Below are positions 40,859 through 50,382 of a stretch of 64,000 nt of DNA, one piece after another. Both the position numbers and the translations under genes were made by a program. The stretch is from Bacteroidales bacterium (GTDB lineage: Bacteria > Bacteroidota > Bacteroidia > Bacteroidales > UBA932): contig JAFZRX010000007.1 in NCBI GenBank assembly GCA_017619675.1, positions 123,382 through 187,381 of the forward strand, in the 5' to 3' direction. The notes beneath the pieces are model-generated. The model saw only the letters and a program-made list of their open reading frames with translations. It did not search any database and was not told where the DNA came from. Numbering within the stretch: position 1 is the first letter of the stretch; each line of letters begins with the position of its first letter.

Positions 40859-43096
40859 TTATTTGATTTCTATGGAAGTGCTCGTGCGCAGGTCATCCGA
40901 AGCTGATCCCAGCAGCAGTTCAACCTGGCCCTTCTCAAGCTGCCAGCCGGTGTCAGACCACCAGCAGAGCTCGCTTACAGGGAACTCCAGGGTAACTTTC
41001 TTGCTCTCCCCCGCTCCCAGGGCAACCCTCTTGAACGCCTTGAGTTCCTTGGCCGGATATTCAACCTTGGCGTCCTTGCGGCTTACATACAACTGGGCCA
41101 CTTCCTCCGCCGGCATATCACCGGTATTCTTGAGGTCGAAGGTAACCTTAACGGTATCGCCCTCCTTGTACGCTTTCTTTGAAGCGGCAAGGCCGGAGTA
41201 CTCGAAGTCTACGTACGAGAGGCCATGGCCGAAGGCGTATGCCACCGGGACTCCCTTTGTGTCAAACCAGCGGTAGCCCACCAGGAGACCCTCAGTGTAC
41301 TTTGAGTCCGGGGTGACGCGGCGCATAGGGCCGCCTGCGGCCATGTCGGCGCGGTACATCCCGGTGAAAAGGTCTTCCTGGGTCTCCGCCCTGTTGGGGA
41401 AGTTGCCCATCGCGTAAGCCGGAGATTCCTCCAGCACGCGCGGATATGTGAACGGAAGTTTTCCGGACGGGGCCCTGTCACCAAAGAGCACCTCTGCAAG
41501 GGCGGTTCCGCCCTCTATTCCGTTCCACCAGCCCTGTACCATGGCCTTAGAGCAGGCCTCCACGGCTGCAAGTTCAAGCGGGCCGCCGGAGATAACAACG
41601 CTGACCATGTTGGGGTTGGCCTCTGCCAGAGCGGCAGCGATGGCTTCCTGGCCAACCGGGAGCTTGATGTTCTGGCGGTCGCTTCCCTCGGTCTCTATGT
41701 TCTTGTTGGTTCCGCAGAAGTAGAGCACCAGGTCCGCAGACTTGGCCAGTTCAACAGCCTCTGCAAGGAGGTCTGCGTCAGGCTCCTCGTCTATTGCCAT
41801 GGCCTGGAGAGGTCCGGGTGTCTGGCCGGGACGCACCCTTCCGCCAAAGTTCCTGTAACCGGGGGCGTAGAGCACCTTTATGGCGTTGCCGGCCCTGCGC
41901 TGGATACCCTGCAGGGGTGTGACCTCGTAAGGGGTCTTCACGCCCGCGCCCACACCGCCGGCGGCGGTGGACAGCACGGCGTTCTGGCCTATCACGGCTA
42001 TCGTCTTCACGTCCTTGGCTATAGGAAGTCCCTTGCCCTTGTTGCTGAGCAGCACTATGGAGCGGCGGGCCACCTCCAGGGCGGCCTGGCGGCTCTCAGG
42101 CTGCGAAGTCTGCACCAGGTTGCTCTTGTCCGCAGGGATGGGCTCTATGGCATAGCGCACGCGGAGCAGTTCGCGCACCTTGTCGTCAACCACCTTCTCG
42201 GACACCTTGCCCGCAGCGATGGAGTCGATGAGCGGAGGTCCAAGGTAGTTGTCTCCCGTCATCTGCACGTCGAGGCCGTGCAGCGCGGCTCCCATGGTGC
42301 TGTGCGTGGCTCCCCAGTCTGACACCGTGATGCCCTTGAAGCCCCATTCGCCGCGCAGGATCTCGTTCAGGAGGTGTTCGTTCTCAGAGCAGTAGTCTCC
42401 GTTCACCTTGTTGTACGCGGGCATTATGGCCATTGCGCCGGCCTCCTTTACGGTGGCCTCGAAAGGCTTGAGGTAGATCTCGCGCATCACCCTTTCGTCA
42501 ATAATCACGTTCACGCTGCCGCGGTTGGTCTCCTGGTTGTTTATGGCGAAGTGCTTCACGCAGGCGGCGGTTCCCGCATCCTGCATTCCCTTCACGTAGC
42601 CAACTGCAAGGGCGGCCGCAAGGGCCGGGTCCTCGCTCAGGTACTCGTAACTGCGGCCGCCCACGGGCAACCTCTGGATGTTGATGGCGGGGCCCAGCAT
42701 CACGTCCTTTCCGCGGAGGCGGGCCTCCACGCCAATCCCATGGCCGTAGTCATAGGCCAGGGAAGGGTCCCAGGTGGCGGCAAGCGCCGATCCCGTGGGG
42801 AAATACGTGGCGGAGTCCAGCTGCCAGCCCAGCGGGCGGAAGCCGTCTCCCAGTTCCTCGCGCACGCCGAACGGGCCGTCGGCGTACTTGATGTCCTGGA
42901 TTCCCAGGCGGGGAACGCCTTCGGAGGACATGATGGTCTTGGAGTGGAGCATCATCACCTTCTCCTCCAGGGACATCTGGGCGATAATCTTGTCAATCTC
43001 CTTGTCGTGCTTTGTAAGCAGGTCCTGGGGAGAGGTCTTGGCGCAGCCCGCCACAAGGGCCATGGCTGCCAATACCGGAATGATCAGTCTTCTCAT
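40859..43096 (-). CDS. GH3 beta-glycosidase lipoprotein
   Basis: 745 residues, lipobox VAGC. The nucleophile is Asp260 in TVSDWGATHS; the barrel starts with LSLEEKVMMLHSK..., KHFAINNQETNRG marks the substrate site, and the (alpha/beta)6 domain and C-terminal fibronectin-like domain (YKEGDTVKVTFDLKNTGDMPAEEVAQLYV) follow. Beta-glucosidase or beta-xylosidase of plant oligosaccharides at the cell envelope. It ends the operon hypD-activase-GH127-symporter-GH3, 1 bp after the symporter gene. Confidence 0.93.
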   Translation of the reverse strand: MRRLIIPVLAAMALVAGCAKTSPQDLLTKHDKEIDKIIAQMSLEEKVMMLHSKTIMSSEGVPRLGIQDIKYADGPFGVREELGDGFRPLGWQLDSATYFPTGSALAATWDPSLAYDYGHGIGVEARLRGKDVMLGPAINIQRLPVGGRSYEYLSEDPALAAALAVGYVKGMQDAGTAACVKHFAINNQETNRGSVNVIIDERVMREIYLKPFEATVKEAGAMAIMPAYNKVNGDYCSENEHLLNEILRGEWGFKGITVSDWGATHSTMGAALHGLDVQMTGDNYLGPPLIDSIAAGKVSEKVVDDKVRELLRVRYAIEPIPADKSNLVQTSQPESRQAALEVARRSIVLLSNKGKGLPIAKDVKTIAVIGQNAVLSTAAGGVGAGVKTPYEVTPLQGIQRRAGNAIKVLYAPGYRNFGGRVRPGQTPGPLQAMAIDEEPDADLLAEAVELAKSADLVLYFCGTNKNIETEGSDRQNIKLPVGQEAIAAALAEANPNMVSVVISGGPLELAAVEACSKAMVQGWWNGIEGGTALAEVLFGDRAPSGKLPFTYPRVLEESPAYAMGNFPNRAETQEDLFTGMYRADMAAGGPMRRVTPDSKYTEGLLVGYRWFDTKGVPVAYAFGHGLSYVDFEYSGLAASKKAYKEGDTVKVTFDLKNTGDMPAEEVAQLYVSRKDAKVEYPAKELKAFKRVALGAGESKKVTLEFPVSELCWWSDTGWQLEKGQVELLLGSASDDLRTSTSIEIK

Positions 43097-43097
43097 A

Positions 43098-44486
43098 TTA
43101 TTTCTTTATTGGATATTTCTTCTCTACGTCCTTGAGCGCGGCCAGCGCCTGCGGGAACAGGAACAGCAGGGACAGGACATTTATCCAGGTGGTAAGTCCA
43201 AGGCCCACGTCGCCCCATTTCCAGGCCGTGTCGGAACTGGTACAGGCCCCGAGCACAACCAAAGTTAGCATTAATATTCTATAAACCCATACGACGGCCT
43301 TCTCAGCCTTGCTTCCGGCTTTGCCGCTGCGGCTGAATATATATGCGATGCTGGATTCAGCGTAGAAGTAATACGCCATCAGGGTGGTGAATACGAAAAA
43401 TGTCAGCGCCACCGCCACAAAGGCGCTTCCAAAGCCGTGGAAAACGGTGTCAATGGCCGCCTGGGTGTAGCCCACGTAATTGCTTCCAAGCGCCGGGGCA
43501 GCCGCATAAAGCAGTTCACCGCTGCCGGAATCGACAATGTTGTAATTCCCGGTGCAGAGTATCATCAGGGCCGTAGCCGTACAAACCAGGATGGTGTCGA
43601 TGTATACGGAGAAAGCCTGCACCAGGCCCTGCTGGGCGGGCATTTCGTTCTCCGCGCTTGCGGAGACTATTGCCCCGCCGCCCTGGCCCGCCTCGTTGGA
43701 GAACAGGCCGCGCTTAACTCCCATGGCAAAGGTGTTTCCCAGCATTCCGCCCACCAGCGGATTAATGCCGAAGGCACTTCTCACAATCAGCCCCAGCATC
43801 CCCGGAACCACCTTGATGTTTGCACCGATTATTATCAACGCCATCAGGATATAGGCGATGGCCATGAACGGGGTCACCACCGTGGCCACGTTGGCGATGC
43901 GCTTCGCCCCGCCGATGATCACCAGGCTCAGCACGAACGCCAGCACAGCGCCGGACACCCACGGCTTAACTGCGAATGAATTCTCGAACGCCCCTGAAAC
44001 GCCGTTGGCCTGCGTCAGCACCAGCAGCATGCCATATCCCGCAATCGTCAATATGGCGAAAAGCATTCCCAGCCCCGGCTTCTTCAATCCTTTCTCTATG
44101 TAGGAAGCCGGGCCTCCGCGCAACTCGCCCTTATGCTTGAAGTTGTATATCTGCGCCAGCGTGGATTCCGTAAACGCGGTGGACGCTCCCAGGAATGCTA
44201 TGACCCACATCCAGAACACGGCACCGGGGCCTCCCAGGGCGATGGCCGTGGCCACGCCCACTATGTTCCCGGTGCCCACCCTTCCGGAAAGGGCCACGCA
44301 GAATGCCTGGAACGGGGAAAAACTTTTCTGGTCCGATGACTTCCGCCGCCCGAAGAGCAACTTTGCCATCAATCCTACCCTGCGTATCTGCACGCACCGC
44401 GTGCGTATGGTAAAATACAGTCCAGCCCCCACCAGCAGCACTATCAGCGCCGGGCTCCATATTATGTTGTAGATAATTTCAGTCAC
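43098..44486 (-). CDS. Sodium:alanine/glycine-type amino-acid symporter (AGCS family)
   Basis: 462 residues, about 10-11 helices. Family signature PFQAFCVALSGRVGTGNIVGVATAIALGGPGAVFWMWV (~residues 58-95) and GGPASYIEKGL. Takes up small neutral amino acids with Na+. The start is GTG (44484-44486), inside the last codons of the GH127 gene, so 8 bp overlap. In this operon the likely cargo is hydroxyproline, proline or a small glycosylated amino acid; AGCS members studied so far carry Ala/Gly, so this cargo is inference. Confidence 0.93.
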   Translation of the reverse strand: MTEIIYNIIWSPALIVLLVGAGLYFTIRTRCVQIRRVGLMAKLLFGRRKSSDQKSFSPFQAFCVALSGRVGTGNIVGVATAIALGGPGAVFWMWVIAFLGASTAFTESTLAQIYNFKHKGELRGGPASYIEKGLKKPGLGMLFAILTIAGYGMLLVLTQANGVSGAFENSFAVKPWVSGAVLAFVLSLVIIGGAKRIANVATVVTPFMAIAYILMALIIIGANIKVVPGMLGLIVRSAFGINPLVGGMLGNTFAMGVKRGLFSNEAGQGGGAIVSASAENEMPAQQGLVQAFSVYIDTILVCTATALMILCTGNYNIVDSGSGELLYAAAPALGSNYVGYTQAAIDTVFHGFGSAFVAVALTFFVFTTLMAYYFYAESSIAYIFSRSGKAGSKAEKAVVWVYRILMLTLVVLGACTSSDTAWKWGDVGLGLTTWINVLSLLFLFPQALAALKDVEKKYPIKK

Positions 44487-46914
44487 TTTCAGTCAAGTTC
44501 AGTCTAAGGTAATGTGTCCCACGTTCCGTCATATAATAGTCCGGATAGAATGTCTTTCCGTCCAGGGTCATCGTATATATGTTTCCGTTTGTACCGTCCG
44601 CACCGTCAGCCCCGTTGAGCACCAGGCCGTCCAGTCCCGGATCCAGCGTGAACTCCGCCTGGTCCCAGGAATTGATCTCCGGCGACGCCATCACCAGCGG
44701 GCCATACAACAGCGCTCCGAGCCATCTTGGCTCGAACGCTGTTGAAGGCCCGCCCTCCGCCGTGGCCGCAACCTCCATCTTATCAGGTCCGTAGAACAGA
44801 TGCGCGCCGAACGGCATCTCAATCTCCACCCTGTCCCCCGCTTTCCACTCACGCTCAGGGATTTCCACATAGGATGACGGCTGGTACTTCCTGCCAACCT
44901 TCCTGCCGTTCAGCCTTATCCTGAAGTCCTTTCCCACCCAGTAAGGAACGCGCAGTTTCATTGCAAAGCGGCCGCCTTCCTCTATGGTTATCACGGACTT
45001 CTCCGCAGGCCAGGCGCATTCCTGGCGCAGGGTGACGCCCTTCGCCTCCCAGTTTGCCACAGTAGGCAAATAAAGCCCAACCCAGATGGTATTGTCGGAT
45101 ACAAAATACGCCGCCTCCTGATATTTGACGTGATTCTCTGCGCCCGTTCCGCCGCAGCAGGATGACTGCGGGGTGCGGTTCCCGAACGGCTTGGCCGCAT
45201 TCAATCCCACCGCATACTGATACGTAACTCCGTAATGCTCAGGATGTACGGAACCTACCAGCTGGTTGTAGAGCACCCTTTCATAGTAGTCCATGTAGCG
45301 GGCGTCATCGGGATTGTAGCAGTTCAGGTCCTTGGTCAGTTTTGCCAGGTTGTAGGAACAACAGGTCTCGTTAATATTGGGATCCGGCGCCGTCTCCCCG
45401 TTCCTGCGAGTCTGGGCGTTGGTGTTCATGCTCAGCATCTGGGTGTAAGGCTGGCGGAACATCTCCCCGTTTCCAACGCCTCCCATGGCATACGCATACC
45501 GGCCCTGTACCAGATTCCAGAAATTGACCGCTATGTTGTAATAATATTCATTCCCAGTCGCCTGGAACTGCTTCAGGGAACCGATGATCATTGGGATATG
45601 CTGGTTGGCGTGGCGCGTGCGGATGTCGTCTATGCCGCGCGAGAGCGGCTCGTAGAAGGCCGGGGCGTCAAAGAAGCCCGCGGCCTGCGCCAGCCGCTCC
45701 TTCTCCGTGGGGTCGCTGACCATCACGGCAAGGCGCGACAGAACCTCCTGCATTCCGCCCACTTCCCCCGCTATGTACATGTTCCACATCTCATAGCGGT
45801 TTCCGGGGCGGGCCCGCCTTTCCTCCTGGGTTGCTCCGTCCGCATCCACGAAGGTGCGGTAGTTCAGCCTGTTCCATACCCACAGGCCCATGTCCTTGGC
45901 TATCAGCAGCGCCTTGGCTGCAATCTCCGGGTCATCGACATTCAATGCAATGTCAATGAGTCCCGCCAACTGTTTGTGTATGGTATAATACGGGGCCCAG
46001 ACGCCAGTGGTATTGTTATACGGAGTATATTTCTCAATCAGAATCGGATGCTGCGCCGGGATTGCATTTATATAGCCGTATCCGTACTTGGTGCAGTCCT
46101 TCTTGTAAACGTCAAAGGCCTCCCAGGTGCCTTCCATCTTAGCCAGTTCCTCCTCCGGGGCCAGGTCGCGCGCCTCGCGGTAGCGTCCCAGCGCCGGATC
46201 CCACACAAAGGTCAGTTCCTGGCAATAGCGCAGTTCGTCCACCATCCTCCTGATATTGGCCTTCAGGGCGGCCTTCAACGAAGGGTCATCAGTACCCGCA
46301 TATGCGAACGCCAATGCGGACATATAATGCCCGGATCCGTGTCCCTTCAACTTTGTGGTAGGAGAATCCCACCCGTTGGAACGGGTATACCCCTCCGTGC
46401 TCAGTCCATATGTATCCCGGTAATTATACAGCTCCTGGGTGATATCCAGGGAAAGCAGGTTCTCTATGTCCAGGTCGCGGTTGGAAGTGAGGCGGTTGTC
46501 CCCTATGAGGCGCACGCTTCCCAGCGGAAGCGGCTGCGCCTGCGGGGTCTTTGCCGGCACTTCCCACGCCCCGCCAACGACCTTCACCTGCGCATCCAGC
46601 GGATACCCTTCGGCCTCAGCGGAATCCCCAAGGATATAACCCCGCACTGTATATTCCGAACCCGCGGCCAAACCAGCCTCCTGCTCCTCCGTTTCCCGCG
46701 CGCTGTTCATCCACTTCACCTGCCTCCACTCCCCGGAACCGTCAGAATAACTCACCCACACCTGATACGGCAGCCTTGGCGCAGTCCCCTCAGGGGTCTC
46801 TACCCGTACTGCCTCGACTTTGCGTATCTCTTTATTCTTTCCACCACATCCGGCGAGAATCACCACTCCGCAGAGCAGCGCCGTAATCCAGGTAATTATT
46901 CGGTCAGGTTTCAT
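44479..46914 (-). CDS. GH127/GH146-type (DUF1680) beta-L-arabinofuranosidase lipoprotein
   Basis: 811 residues, lipobox LAGC. Residues ~30-120 form an Ig-like domain; the (alpha/alpha)6 barrel follows. Glu516 and Cys518 (NETCCSYN) with Cys586 and Cys587 (SSCCGGTG) match the Zn-thiolate set of HypBA1 from Bifidobacterium, in which a Cys is the nucleophile. HypBA1 removes beta-L-arabinofuranose from hydroxyproline-linked arabinosides of extensin. The gene lies 15 bp after the activase and overlaps the symporter. Family is firm; linkage specificity is inferred from the hydroxyproline genes beside it. Confidence 0.88.
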   Translation of the reverse strand: MKPDRIITWITALLCGVVILAGCGGKNKEIRKVEAVRVETPEGTAPRLPYQVWVSYSDGSGEWRQVKWMNSARETEEQEAGLAAGSEYTVRGYILGDSAEAEGYPLDAQVKVVGGAWEVPAKTPQAQPLPLGSVRLIGDNRLTSNRDLDIENLLSLDITQELYNYRDTYGLSTEGYTRSNGWDSPTTKLKGHGSGHYMSALAFAYAGTDDPSLKAALKANIRRMVDELRYCQELTFVWDPALGRYREARDLAPEEELAKMEGTWEAFDVYKKDCTKYGYGYINAIPAQHPILIEKYTPYNNTTGVWAPYYTIHKQLAGLIDIALNVDDPEIAAKALLIAKDMGLWVWNRLNYRTFVDADGATQEERRARPGNRYEMWNMYIAGEVGGMQEVLSRLAVMVSDPTEKERLAQAAGFFDAPAFYEPLSRGIDDIRTRHANQHIPMIIGSLKQFQATGNEYYYNIAVNFWNLVQGRYAYAMGGVGNGEMFRQPYTQMLSMNTNAQTRRNGETAPDPNINETCCSYNLAKLTKDLNCYNPDDARYMDYYERVLYNQLVGSVHPEHYGVTYQYAVGLNAAKPFGNRTPQSSCCGGTGAENHVKYQEAAYFVSDNTIWVGLYLPTVANWEAKGVTLRQECAWPAEKSVITIEEGGRFAMKLRVPYWVGKDFRIRLNGRKVGRKYQPSSYVEIPEREWKAGDRVEIEMPFGAHLFYGPDKMEVAATAEGGPSTAFEPRWLGALLYGPLVMASPEINSWDQAEFTLDPGLDGLVLNGADGADGTNGNIYTMTLDGKTFYPDYYMTERGTHYLRLNLTESD

Positions 46915-46929
46915 ATACAGTGTCTTTTA

Positions 46930-47838
46930 TTATCCACCAATCCGGCATTCTATGCCGCGTGCATTAAAAATCTCAAGCGCCGCTTCCTGTTCCTCTGCCG
47001 ACGGGGTCTCAAACGGGTAATTGTCCGGGTTGAAGGTGGACCACATGCGGCGGTGTTTGCCTTTGGCTACGTCGTGGTACGGGAGGAGGTCAACCTCCTG
47101 CGGCGGGGTTGGCAGGGAGAGGAGGAAGTCCGCGGCGGCGGTGAGGTTGTCCTGGTCCGCGTTCACGCCTTTTATGAGGGGGATGCGGATCCAGTAGGGG
47201 GCTTTCAGCTCGGAGAGGAGGCGTATGTTACTTAGAATCAGTTCGTTGTCTGCACCGGTGTATTTGCGGTGGAGGGCTGGGTCCATCAGTTTGAGGTCAA
47301 CCAGGAAGAGGTCGCAGTTGGGGACGGCGCGGCGGAGGGTTTGCGGCGGCACCAGCAGGCAGGTGTCCACGCAACGGTGGAAGCCGCGCCTGCCAAGTTC
47401 CTCCAGCAGGGCAACGGCGTAGTCAGCGTCAAGCAGCGGCTCTCCGCCGCACAGCGTGACGCCTCCGCCGCCGGTTTCCATCACTCCCCTTTCCTTTTCT
47501 ATCTCCGCCATCAATTGGTCCATGGGCCAGTCCTTGCCGCTGATTTCCAGGGCCGTGGTGGGGCAGGAGTCCGCGCAGGCGCCGCAGAGGACGCATACGT
47601 CTTTATCCTGGACTACGCCATCGGCAGTGAATGTCAGGGCTCCCGTTGGACAGGCGTCGATGCAGGTATGGCAACCTATGCATCTGCTCTGCTTGTACAG
47701 AAGCTGCGGCTGCGGGTCCCAGCTTTCCGGATTATGGCACCATACGCACCTGAGTGGGCAGCCCTTTAGGAATATGGTGGTGCGGATTCCGGGGCCGTCG
47801 TGTAGGGCGTATCGCTTGATGTCAAAAATCAGGGCCAT
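46930..47838 (-). CDS. Glycyl-radical enzyme activase (radical SAM), HypD activator
   Basis: 302 residues. SAM-cluster cysteines Cys27, Cys31, Cys34 (KGCPLRCVWCHNPE, CxxxCxxC), and two extra ferredoxin clusters CIGCHTCIDACP (~residues 53-64) and CVLCGACADSCP (~82-93), typical of PFL-activase relatives of dehydratase type. GGGVTLCGGEPLLDADY is the SAM-contact segment. It puts the glycyl radical onto the enzyme encoded 3 bp upstream. Oxygen-sensitive, cytoplasmic. Confidence 0.94.
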   Translation of the reverse strand: MALIFDIKRYALHDGPGIRTTIFLKGCPLRCVWCHNPESWDPQPQLLYKQSRCIGCHTCIDACPTGALTFTADGVVQDKDVCVLCGACADSCPTTALEISGKDWPMDQLMAEIEKERGVMETGGGGVTLCGGEPLLDADYAVALLEELGRRGFHRCVDTCLLVPPQTLRRAVPNCDLFLVDLKLMDPALHRKYTGADNELILSNIRLLSELKAPYWIRIPLIKGVNADQDNLTAAADFLLSLPTPPQEVDLLPYHDVAKGKHRRMWSTFNPDNYPFETPSAEEQEAALEIFNARGIECRIGG

Positions 47839-47841
47839 GGG

Positions 47842-50205
47842 TTAAAACTCTTGGTTCTGGGTGCGGGCTATGATTTCTTCCTGGAGCTGGGAGGTCATGT
47901 CGTTGAAATAGTCAGAGTAGCCGGCCACGCGGACAAGCAGGTCGCGGTACTGGTCCGGATGCCGCTGGGCGTCGCGGAGGGTCTCCGTATCGACTATGTT
48001 GAACTGGATATGGTGTCCGCCAAGGCGGAAGTATTCCCTGATGAGCTTGCCCAGTTTGGAAACGTCCTGGTCCGTCTTGAGGAGGGCCGGGGTGAACCGG
48101 ACGTTGAGAAGGGTGCCGCCGCTCCTGGTCTGGTCCAGTTTGCCCAGGGAGCGGATCACGGCGGTGGGGCCGTTGGTGTCCGCGCCGTGCGCAGGGGAGG
48201 TGCCGTCGGAAATGGCAAAATGGGCGAAGCGCCCGTCCGCTGAAGCCCCGCATACCTGGCCGAAATAGTTGTGGCAGGTGGTGGACAGCATGTTCAGGTA
48301 GGTCTTGCCGCCACGGGTGTTGGGGCGGCCTTCTATGGCGCCTACCAGGTCGTTGTATACACGGAGGGCTATGTCGTCCGCATAAGGGTTGTCATTGCCG
48401 AAGAACGGAGTGTGGTTGCGGATGTACTGGCGCATGACCTCATCACCCTGGAAGTTGCGCTGAAGGGCATTCAGCAACTGGTCCATGGTGTATCGGCCAT
48501 CCTGGAAGATATGCTTCTTAATTACTGACAGACAGTCTGTTATGGTTCCCAGGCCGGTGCACTGGATGTAGGTTGTATTGTACCTGGCGCCGCCGCTGTA
48601 GTAGTCCATCCCCTTGTCTATGCAGTCGTCTATGTACAGGCTCAGGAAGGTGGCCGGGGCGTAGAGGCTGAACATCCTTTCAATGTAGTTGTTCACGCTC
48701 AGTTTCAGGTTCACGAAGTACTCCATCTGGGCCTTCCAGGCAGCGTACAGTTGCTCGAAGTCCCTGAAGGTGCGGGGGTCTCCGGTCTTGAGGCCTATCT
48801 GCTTTCCAGTCTCCGGATCAATGCCGTCGTTAAGCGTTATTTCCAGGATCTTGGGGGTGTTCAGATAGCCTGTCAGAAGGTATGCTTCCTTGCCGAAGGC
48901 GCCCACCTCTATGCAGCCGGAGCAGCCGCCCTCGCGGGCGTCCTGAAGGCTCTTCCCCTGGCGGACCAGTTCCTGCACATAGGTGTCAGGATTGAATACT
49001 GAAGGGTATCCGAAACCCCTGCGTATTACCTTTATTCCGGCTTCCAGGAAGTCATCCGGGGTGTTCTTGGAAATGTGGATGCTGAGGCCCGGCTGCAGTT
49101 CGTGAAGTTCCTCCTGGATCTCCAGGATCATGTAGGAGAGGGGGTTCACGGCGCTGTTGCCGTCTCGGTCTATCCCGCCTATGTTGATGTTTGTGAAGTC
49201 ATTGTATGTGCCTGATTCCCTGGCGGTTATGCCTACCTTTGGAGGGGCGGGCTGGTTGTTGAACTTGATCCAGAGGCAGCTCAGCAGTTCCTTGGCTGAG
49301 TCATAGTTGAGAGTGCCGTCCTCCAGTCCCTTCTTGTAGAACGGATAGAGGTGCTGGTCAAGATGGCCCGGGTTCATGGAGTCCCAGCCGTTGAGTTCGG
49401 TGACGGTGCCCAGATGGACGAACCAGTACATCTGGATGGCCTCCCAGAGGTCACGCGGCGCGTGGGCGGGCACCCAGTCGCATACGGAGGCTATCTTTAA
49501 CAGTTCCTCCCTGCGGCGGGGGTTGCGCTCCGCGGCGGCCATTTCGCGCGCCAGCGCCGCATGGCGCTGCGCGAACAGTATGGCCGCGTCGCAGGAGATG
49601 GCCATCGCCTCCAGTTCCTGCTGCTTGTCCGTGGCTTGCGCATCGGCAATGTAATCCAACTCCGATATGCGCTTGGCTATGCGCTCCTTCATGTCCAGCA
49701 GCCCCTCGCGGTACATCCTGCCGTCCATGGCAGTGTGTCCCGCCGCGCGCTGCTCCATGAACTCCGTGAAAACGCCCGCATGATAGGCTTCCTCCCACTC
49801 TTTGGACACGTGCCCGAAGATGCGCTCGCGCTGGGTCTTTCCTTCCCAATAAGGGATGACCTCGCGCCTGTAAGTCTCTATGTCATCGGCACTTATGTGA
49901 TAGCTCTGGAGTTCGCGGGTGTCAAGCACGCGCAGGTCCTCCTCGCTGTGGCAGGTGAGCTCGGGGAAGGTGGGCACGGCCTTTGGACGCGGGCCCCTCT
50001 CGCCCACTATCAGCTCATCCGGACCAATGTATATGGTCTTCTTGGCGCAAATCTCGTAGAAGTTCCTGGCCCTGAGTATGGGTATGGGATATTTGCCGTA
50101 GTTCTCCTTGTAGAACTCCGTCTCTATCAGGGCCCTCTCGATGCTCAGGGTCGTTGGAGTCTCCACGCTTTCCTTGCGCAGGCGCTTTATCCTGTCATTC
50201 ATCAT
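47842..50205 (-). CDS. hypD: Glycyl-radical enzyme, trans-4-hydroxy-L-proline dehydratase (HypD)
   Basis: 787 residues. The thiyl Cys431 and Glu433 lie in GGCSGCIEVGAFGKEAY, nearly the same as in Clostridioides HypD, and Gly762 of RVAGYSDYF is the radical glycine. RESGTYNDFTNINIGG and NGWDSMNPGHLDQ also fit HypD rather than PFL or choline lyase. HypD removes water from hydroxyproline to give pyrroline-5-carboxylate, which ProC reduces to proline; no proC is in the window. First gene of the five-gene operon; box TATATTTG at 50224-50231. ATG 50205 or 50202. Confidence 0.9.
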   Translation of the reverse strand: MMNDRIKRLRKESVETPTTLSIERALIETEFYKENYGKYPIPILRARNFYEICAKKTIYIGPDELIVGERGPRPKAVPTFPELTCHSEEDLRVLDTRELQSYHISADDIETYRREVIPYWEGKTQRERIFGHVSKEWEEAYHAGVFTEFMEQRAAGHTAMDGRMYREGLLDMKERIAKRISELDYIADAQATDKQQELEAMAISCDAAILFAQRHAALAREMAAAERNPRRREELLKIASVCDWVPAHAPRDLWEAIQMYWFVHLGTVTELNGWDSMNPGHLDQHLYPFYKKGLEDGTLNYDSAKELLSCLWIKFNNQPAPPKVGITARESGTYNDFTNINIGGIDRDGNSAVNPLSYMILEIQEELHELQPGLSIHISKNTPDDFLEAGIKVIRRGFGYPSVFNPDTYVQELVRQGKSLQDAREGGCSGCIEVGAFGKEAYLLTGYLNTPKILEITLNDGIDPETGKQIGLKTGDPRTFRDFEQLYAAWKAQMEYFVNLKLSVNNYIERMFSLYAPATFLSLYIDDCIDKGMDYYSGGARYNTTYIQCTGLGTITDCLSVIKKHIFQDGRYTMDQLLNALQRNFQGDEVMRQYIRNHTPFFGNDNPYADDIALRVYNDLVGAIEGRPNTRGGKTYLNMLSTTCHNYFGQVCGASADGRFAHFAISDGTSPAHGADTNGPTAVIRSLGKLDQTRSGGTLLNVRFTPALLKTDQDVSKLGKLIREYFRLGGHHIQFNIVDTETLRDAQRHPDQYRDLLVRVAGYSDYFNDMTSQLQEEIIARTQNQEF

Positions 50206-50223
50206 CTTGCGAATAGTTCATTA

Positions 50224-50231
50224 CAAATATA
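50224..50231 (-). promoter_or_regulatory. Promoter -7 box of the hydroxyproline/arabinoside operon
   Basis: TATATTTG on the minus strand, 18 bp before ATG 50205. The rest of the 177-bp divergent gap (50206-50382) is A/T-rich, with TAACTTTC (50344-50351), one base off consensus, as a possible -7 box for the GH9 gene on the plus strand. Confidence 0.55.
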
Positions 50232-50382
50232 GTCATTTATCCGTTTTGCTGATAATGAACATGTTAAGAAGAACAATGCATTTTTAATTATTTTTATTAA
50301 TGTAATAAGTATTTAAAATGGGGCTTTAATAAATAATTTTTATTAACTTTCGGGGCTAGAATATCATTATTATCATTCCAAT

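Follow-up and report, generated by a model that had tools for sequence, protein, structure and literature searches.

A five-gene operon in a gut bacterium of the order Bacteroidales appears to join the stripping of arabinose from hydroxyproline (Hyp) and the use of Hyp itself. The operon lies in a stretch of 64,000 nt, called the window here. It probably lets gut Bacteroidales take Hyp from plant Hyp-rich glycoproteins, above all from extensins, which are structural proteins of plant cell walls, as an offshoot of a larger locus of the same genus. The features concerned are the following.

47842..50205, minus strand: hypD, trans-4-hydroxy-L-proline dehydratase (glycyl radical enzyme), 787 aa
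46930..47838, minus strand: glycyl radical enzyme activase (radical SAM), probable HypD activase, 302 aa
44479..46914, minus strand: GH146-like beta-L-arabinofuranosidase-type protein with lipoprotein-like N-terminus, 811 aa, PF07944 and PF20736
43098..44486, minus strand: AGCS-family sodium:amino acid symporter, proposed Hyp carrier, 462 aa, GTG start
40859..43096, minus strand: GH3 enzyme with lipoprotein-like N-terminus, 745 aa, PF00933, PF01915 and PF14310
50224..50231, minus strand: TATATTTG, presumed Bacteroidetes-type -7 promoter box, read in the sequence
50206..50382, no strand: 177-bp intergenic gap between hypD and the GH9 gene, without the genes that sister loci have here

The five window genes share the minus strand and are separated, from hypD to the GH3 gene, by 3, 15, -8 and 1 bp. 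The sequence TATATTTG at 50231-50224 of this strand is 18 bases upstream of the hypD ATG and is taken by us to be a Bacteroidetes-type -7 box; by eye, no -33 element was seen upstream of hypD. The earlier note on this DNA had described five genes on one strand with these gaps and one promoter box, and all of this was borne out, with exact coordinates. GH43, GH31 and GH9 genes flank the operon. Directly downstream, in window:38921-40767, are an ECF sigma factor, two DUF4252 proteins and a small protein. A GH51-type arabinofuranosidase is encoded in window:25332-27521 (minus strand) and has 31% identity to the GH51 of the relatives' locus described below.

By sequence the window HypD is genuine, and the conversion of Hyp to pyrroline-5-carboxylate (P5C) is predicted for it. 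It scores 1147.5 bits with the equivalog model NF043068, above the cut-off of 1100, and aligns with the solved HypD 6vxc over 781 residues with no gap. The ten active-site residues checked (H157, D275, S331, D336, F337, C431, E433, Y447, T642 and G762) are all kept, so that the CXE motif, the His/Asp/Asp network, the Ser/Tyr/Thr and Phe substrate residues and the radical glycine, presumably G762, are present. Roles for nine of the ten are given in the consulted part of PMC7077986. The best NCBIfam model of the activase is NF043069 (HypD activase), at 326.9 bits and below the cut-off of 425; the activase of one sister is also below it, at 321.4 bits. With the general model TIGR02494 the window activase scores 306.6 bits, above the cut-off of 174.35. 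A check of the rest of the genome for proC, raised by the earlier note, gave a match at G000:C16:135709-136005. The P5C dehydrogenase of the relatives' locus has no match in the window genome, an empty answer that is weak proof of absence.

The glycosidase had been described as a GH127-type, HypBA1-like enzyme. This assignment was replaced by GH146-like on the ranking of structure matches, in the single-sequence as well as in the profile search. In the former, 5opj is the top match (1e-45), followed by 8k7y and 8k7x; in the latter, 5opj (4e-54), 8k7y (3e-42) and 8k7x (7e-42) are all ahead of 4qjy, named GH127 (1e-10). No chain named HypBA1 is among the structure matches listed (four single-sequence, nine profile). 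We take 5opj to be BT0349 and 8k7x/8k7y to be Bll3HypBA1, both of GH146. In the alignment, the residues of 8k7y are spaced in keeping with the Bll3HypBA1 numbering in the part of PMC10850190 consulted, and with this numbering the acid/base E694 corresponds to E484 of the window protein, the Zn ligands and nucleophile to E516, C518, C586 and C587, and E578, H628 and N630 to E384, H435 and N437; T631 is changed, to Q438. All of these window residues are invariant in the 18 aligned sequences. The earlier reading that the Zn-thiolate residues Glu516, Cys518, Cys586 and Cys587 are kept thus stands. From the match ranking and the aligned residues, the glycosidase, which has the Zn/Cys catalytic set, is placed nearer to the structures of GH146 than to those of GH127.

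According to the sections of PMC10850190 consulted, the GH146 enzymes XeHypBA1 and Bll4HypBA1 are active on Araf-beta1-Hyp and Bll3HypBA1 is hardly active on it; the family also includes beta-1,3-arabinoside enzymes that are almost inactive on Hyp-arabinosides, and BT0349, which cuts arabinan fragments and is placed in a rhamnogalacturonan I (RG-I) locus. Because members differ in their action on Araf-beta1-Hyp, GH146 membership alone leaves the substrate unsettled. At the C-terminus, most orthologs are extended by about 160 residues that the window glycosidase lacks. This glycosidase is one of two PF07944 proteins in the window genome. The second (L341, G000:C5:1989-3116, 361 bits) is on the same contig about 120 kb before the window, and its surroundings hold no gene matching the extensin-type locus. 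By eye, both the glycosidase and the GH3 enzyme look like lipoproteins. In Bacteroidetes lipoproteins, an acidic signal serves for surface export; none was seen by eye in either N-terminus, and so a periplasmic site is at least as likely for both glycosidases as the cell exterior, where the earlier note had placed arabinose removal.

The symporter scores 449.3 bits with TIGR00835 (agcS), above the cut-off of 272.65, and AgcS is its only solved relative (1e-68). The alignment of the two has an altered stretch in a late helix, AYYFYAE in the window protein versus GWSYYGE in AgcS; the literature search yielded nothing on the binding site of AgcS. The GH3 enzyme, with N, C and Fn3-like domains, has 8va7 as best solved match, and its best NCBIfam model, exo-alpha-1,6-L-arabinopyranosidase, gives 468.6 bits, far below the cut-off of 1300. 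Homologs of symporter and GH3 enzyme are found in 2 of the 135 loci scanned, L117 and L118.

These two loci come from a genome-wide scan of relatives, of which the best 80 of 416 were kept. L118 has all five genes in the same order, and its neighbours are GH9, S41, GH43 and GH31, as in the window. Protein identity to the window is 80-94% across the five genes, the gaps are 9, 27, -8 and 1 bp, and dN/dS from hypD to the GH3 gene is 0.060, 0.203, 0.084, 0.066 and 0.063, as under purifying selection. Since the order recurs at this identity with dN/dS of 0.06-0.20, the five-gene grouping is above chance. L117 has the last three operon genes with GH43 and GH31. It was considered as a natural site without hypD, and this reading was dropped because the same genome has hypD and the activase at the end of another contig (L281) with GH9 and S41 beside them. 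Transposase-like reading frames were seen by eye in L117:1-2196, before the glycosidase, and homology to the window starts at the glycosidase start codon. Insertion and assembly break both fit the split; the tail of the other contig was not found in L117. No homologs of hypD, activase, symporter or GH3 enzyme are in the flanks of the other 78 loci among the best 80 of 416, several of which are on short contigs. The exact order of the five genes is intact in a single other genome and broken up in another, but is not found in these 78. Bacteroidales or Bacteroidia MAGs are the nearest named records of the 80; one comes from yak rumen and another has the title RUG10680, and at least 37 of the 80 record titles name ruminant or horse.

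Upstream of hypD, L281 has a zincin-like lipoprotein and a full-length aminopeptidase P match. In L118 (5381-6692) aminopeptidase P is in two pieces in different frames, an intermediate between L281 and the window, where tblastn gave no match for either protein. Because these genes upstream of hypD in sisters are absent at the window site, the window operon is probably a reduced version of a longer one.

Glycosidase orthologs of 62-74% identity occur in 18 of 150 other genomes of the genus (two further matches at 35-37% left out), and HypD of 79-86% identity in 16 of 249 (leaving out a single match at 51% and twelve genomes whose matches are all near 30%). Nine of the 16 HypD genomes are among the 18 with the glycosidase (binomial P 3e-5 at a base rate of 18/150, without phylogeny correction). 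Five genomes (G446, G479, G647, G650 and G664) have both orthologs on one contig, 16-44 kb apart. In G479 and G647, annotated with Pfam, the two genes bracket a SusC/D locus with an alpha-galactosidase, DUF6055 (M106-type) lipoproteins, peptidases, aminopeptidase P and P5C dehydrogenase; for G446, G650 and G664 the comparison with these two used BLAST and gene calls, with Pfam on part of their proteins. The G479 locus encodes four DUF6055 proteins (three with BACON), DUF4859, two SusC/SusD pairs and a Reg_prop/Y_Y_Y/AraC regulator in which no kinase domain was found, and further GH51-type, CotH, M61, GH27, DPPIV-type S9, aldehyde dehydrogenase and M24 aminopeptidase P proteins. Model TIGR01236 identifies the aldehyde dehydrogenase as a P5C dehydrogenase (752.4 bits, cut-off 613.6). 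In G647 the activase, HypD, M24, M64, a 534-aa protein, aldehyde dehydrogenase, DUF6055, DUF4859, SusD, SusC and GH27 genes follow in a row on one strand, and the glycosidase gene is divergent from this row. G664 encodes a GH127 that is canonical by Pfam, with an 82% homolog in G479; the nearest NCBIfam model of the G664 protein is aceric acid hydrolase, a rhamnogalacturonan II (RG-II) enzyme, at 472.4 bits and below the cut-off of 950. A SusC/SusD pair is beside the catabolic genes in G479 and G647, and no called gene in the window, L341 or L342 matches the SusC/D of the relatives' loci.

DUF6055 is fused to GH27 in one protein of G650 and to GH97 in one of G647. Alpha-galactosidase-type fusions to DUF6055 at L339:6977-9472 (GH27, minus strand) and L298:1171-4032 (GH97, minus strand) are candidate O-glycopeptidases. 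All six DUF6055 proteins inspected have a HEIGH motif, and both His, the Glu and the Gly of the motif are invariant in the 11 aligned sequences. A DUF6055 protein is listed under peptidase family M106 in the part of PMC11241649 consulted. In 8 of the 11 HypD loci of the genus, aminopeptidase P has beside it a lipoprotein (about 286 aa; L337:5387-6247, plus strand) that carries an HExxH motif and for which no Pfam family was found. The gene inventory of the relatives fits extensin chemistry, namely Hyp-beta-arabinosides, Ser-alpha-galactose and Hyp peptides. The coupling of arabinose removal to Hyp dehydration, proposed earlier for the window, is strengthened because the same-genus locus holds orthologs of both halves together with P5C dehydrogenase and aminopeptidase P, and it also has alpha-galactosidase and SusC/D; the GH127 part of that proposal gives way to a GH146-like glycosidase. 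The window operon looks like a compact offshoot of this locus to which genes for an AGCS carrier and a GH3 enzyme have been added.

P5C dehydrogenase is near HypD in 10 of 11 genus loci and in none of 43 others (0/23 in other genera of the family, 0/20 in the order); for M24 the counts are 10/11, 2/23 and 4/20. Fisher P for genus versus other loci is 5e-10 and 3e-6, respectively, without phylogeny correction. The 11 genus loci were drawn from 16 genomes, some chosen because the glycosidase is on the contig; the count leaves out L085, L201 and L285, and L286 is the sole genus locus without P5C dehydrogenase and M24. Locus markers were counted by tblastn, because some loci had genes that escaped the codon-model gene caller. 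Cross-hits among SusC, SusD and DUF6055 paralogs and hits of the GH27-DUF6055 query to DUF6055 genes inflate those counts, and P5C dehydrogenase, M24 and HypD were relied on.

Of 50 genomes with a glycosidase ortholog, 30 have HypD at E <= 1e-200, versus 85 of 247 order-wide (Fisher P 0.001), and HypD over the model cut-off in 26 versus 81 (Fisher P 0.015); the 50 are a non-random choice and the 247 are not family-matched. HypD is missing from 19 or 20 of the 50, and 9 of 18 same-genus glycosidase genomes are outside the HypD genome set. The three closest glycosidase orthologs of the order sample (63-66%) are in G178, G205 and G106; the last two have HypD on contigs other than that of the glycosidase, and G178 is outside the HypD genome set. 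Among the 78 wider glycosidase loci (from the best 80 of 416), 19 have at least one of GH27, DUF6055, canonical GH127, the regulator and SusC, with hits below 28% left out; several of the 19 are of the same genus and others are from records titled Mediterranea, Bacteroides and Tannerella. The other 59 have no locus marker gene within the flank. Because of shared ancestry and unmatched sampling, the co-occurrence of glycosidase and HypD is too weak alone, and locus gene content carries the argument.

The two halves could have been joined by chance, hypD and its activase having come to lie before an unrelated glycosidase-AGCS-GH3 operon for pectic arabinan or RG-II side chains, with Hyp derived from any protein, collagen included. 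The membership of BT0349, an RG-I locus enzyme, in GH146 (PMC10850190, as consulted), the GH43, GH31 and GH9 flank, the nearest model of the relatives' canonical GH127, aceric acid hydrolase (below cut-off), and the 78 other glycosidase orthologs among the best 80 of 416 without hypD nearby agree with this. However, in same-genus relatives a single locus that encodes peptidases, aminopeptidase P and P5C dehydrogenase is flanked by the two halves, and the adjacency of P5C dehydrogenase to HypD (10/11 versus 0/43) also argues against chance, which we regard as improbable. Hardly better are the prospects of a different target, an arabinogalactan protein (AGP) or other beta-L-Araf glycoprotein in place of extensin. 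GH51 and GH27 are not extensin-specific, and beta-L-Araf is also present in AGPs, arabinan and RG-II (PMC10850190, as consulted). But no galactanase family (GH43 subfamily 24, GH30 or GH16) was found among the relatives' locus proteins scanned. Extensin bears Ser-O-alpha-galactose, which the fusion of alpha-galactosidase to a DUF6055/M106-type domain fits. An AGP-type target is thus unlikely.

A more serious alternative, though we lean somewhat away from it, is that the AGCS protein scavenges Ala or Gly, abundant in wall proteins, and that Hyp reaches the cell solely in peptides, through some other route, with the glycosidases serving to de-arabinosylate peptides. Known substrates of the AGCS family are Ala, Gly and Gln, the 54 other HypD neighbourhoods gave no AGCS homolog, and aminopeptidase P adjoins HypD in 10 of 11 genus loci. 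Against this, the AGCS and glycosidase genes overlap by 8 bp both in the window and in L118, aminopeptidase P is missing from the window site, and the late-helix stretch that differs from AgcS may line the substrate site.

On the preferred reading, Hyp use from Hyp-rich glycoproteins, the GH146-like lipoprotein would remove beta-L-arabinofuranose from Hyp or Hyp peptides and the GH3 lipoprotein would trim some further residue. The AGCS carrier would then import free Hyp with Na+, which is the weakest step. Activated HypD, whose family and active site are established above, would dehydrate Hyp to P5C, and ProC, encoded elsewhere in the genome, would make proline from it; in the relatives, P5C dehydrogenase would take P5C to glutamate. 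Because the window genome has two PF07944 proteins only and no match to the locus P5C dehydrogenase, the window cell may live on fragments freed by others. For the relatives, we slightly favour a dedicated extensin system in plant-fed gut Bacteroidales. BACON-DUF6055/M106 O-glycopeptidases, some with DUF6055 fused to GH27 or GH97, would cut the Ser-galactosylated, Hyp-arabinosylated backbone, and SusC/D would import the glycopeptides. Beta-L-arabinofuranosidase-type enzymes and GH51 would strip these, aminopeptidase P would free Hyp, and HypD with P5C dehydrogenase would convert it to glutamate. The window would be the stripped-down scavenger form, with free Hyp taken in by the AGCS carrier.

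Polysaccharide utilisation loci of Bacteroidetes have SusC/SusD pairs, a regulator and glycosidases. The relatives' locus resembles them in its SusC/SusD pairs, Reg_prop/Y_Y_Y/AraC regulator and glycosidases and differs in the Hyp-catabolic genes and peptidases inside it; the window form shows no SusC/D. The HypD of Clostridioides difficile (6vxc; Backman et al. 2020, PMC7077986) is of the same enzyme family as that of the window, as the gapless alignment and kept residues above indicate; that work studied free Hyp, and the terms "gene cluster", "transporter" and "Bacteroid" are absent from its main text. The GH146 enzymes BT0349, Bll3HypBA1, Bll4HypBA1 and XeHypBA1 (PMC10850190) have the Zn ligands, nucleophile, acid/base and three further residues in common with the window glycosidase; they are distant from it (best solved match 1e-45), and the consulted text makes no tie to HypD. 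HypBA1/HypBA2 of Bifidobacterium longum remove beta-arabinosides from Hyp-rich glycoproteins, and there an ABC transporter imports the released beta-arabino-oligosaccharides, with no use of Hyp itself described in the parts of PMC7263609 and PMC10850190 consulted. Unlike HypBA1 of B. longum, the window enzyme is not GH127-like at the profile level. For Latescibacteria, use of Hyp-rich glycoproteins such as extensin was likewise predicted, from GH127 in a genome-wide list with arabinose as the product used; no HypD and no locus are described in the part of PMC4454575 consulted. A description of HypD joined to arabinosyl-Hyp removal was not found in the open-access literature, the scope of the search, with subscription papers mostly outside it. 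The parts are known; what appears new is that one operon couples them, and that an extensin-type locus stands behind it.

The anaerobic degradation of extensins and similar polymers is little known, according to the part of PMC4454575 consulted. Plant wall protein is a plausible source of Hyp in herbivore guts, the home of many of the relatives. If the reading is correct, the locus would tie a plant glycoprotein to glycyl-radical chemistry, DUF6055 would gain a testable function, and an enzyme set for stripping Hyp-rich proteins would be at hand. Both the backbone and the sugar of a plant cell-wall glycoprotein would then be eaten via one regulated unit.
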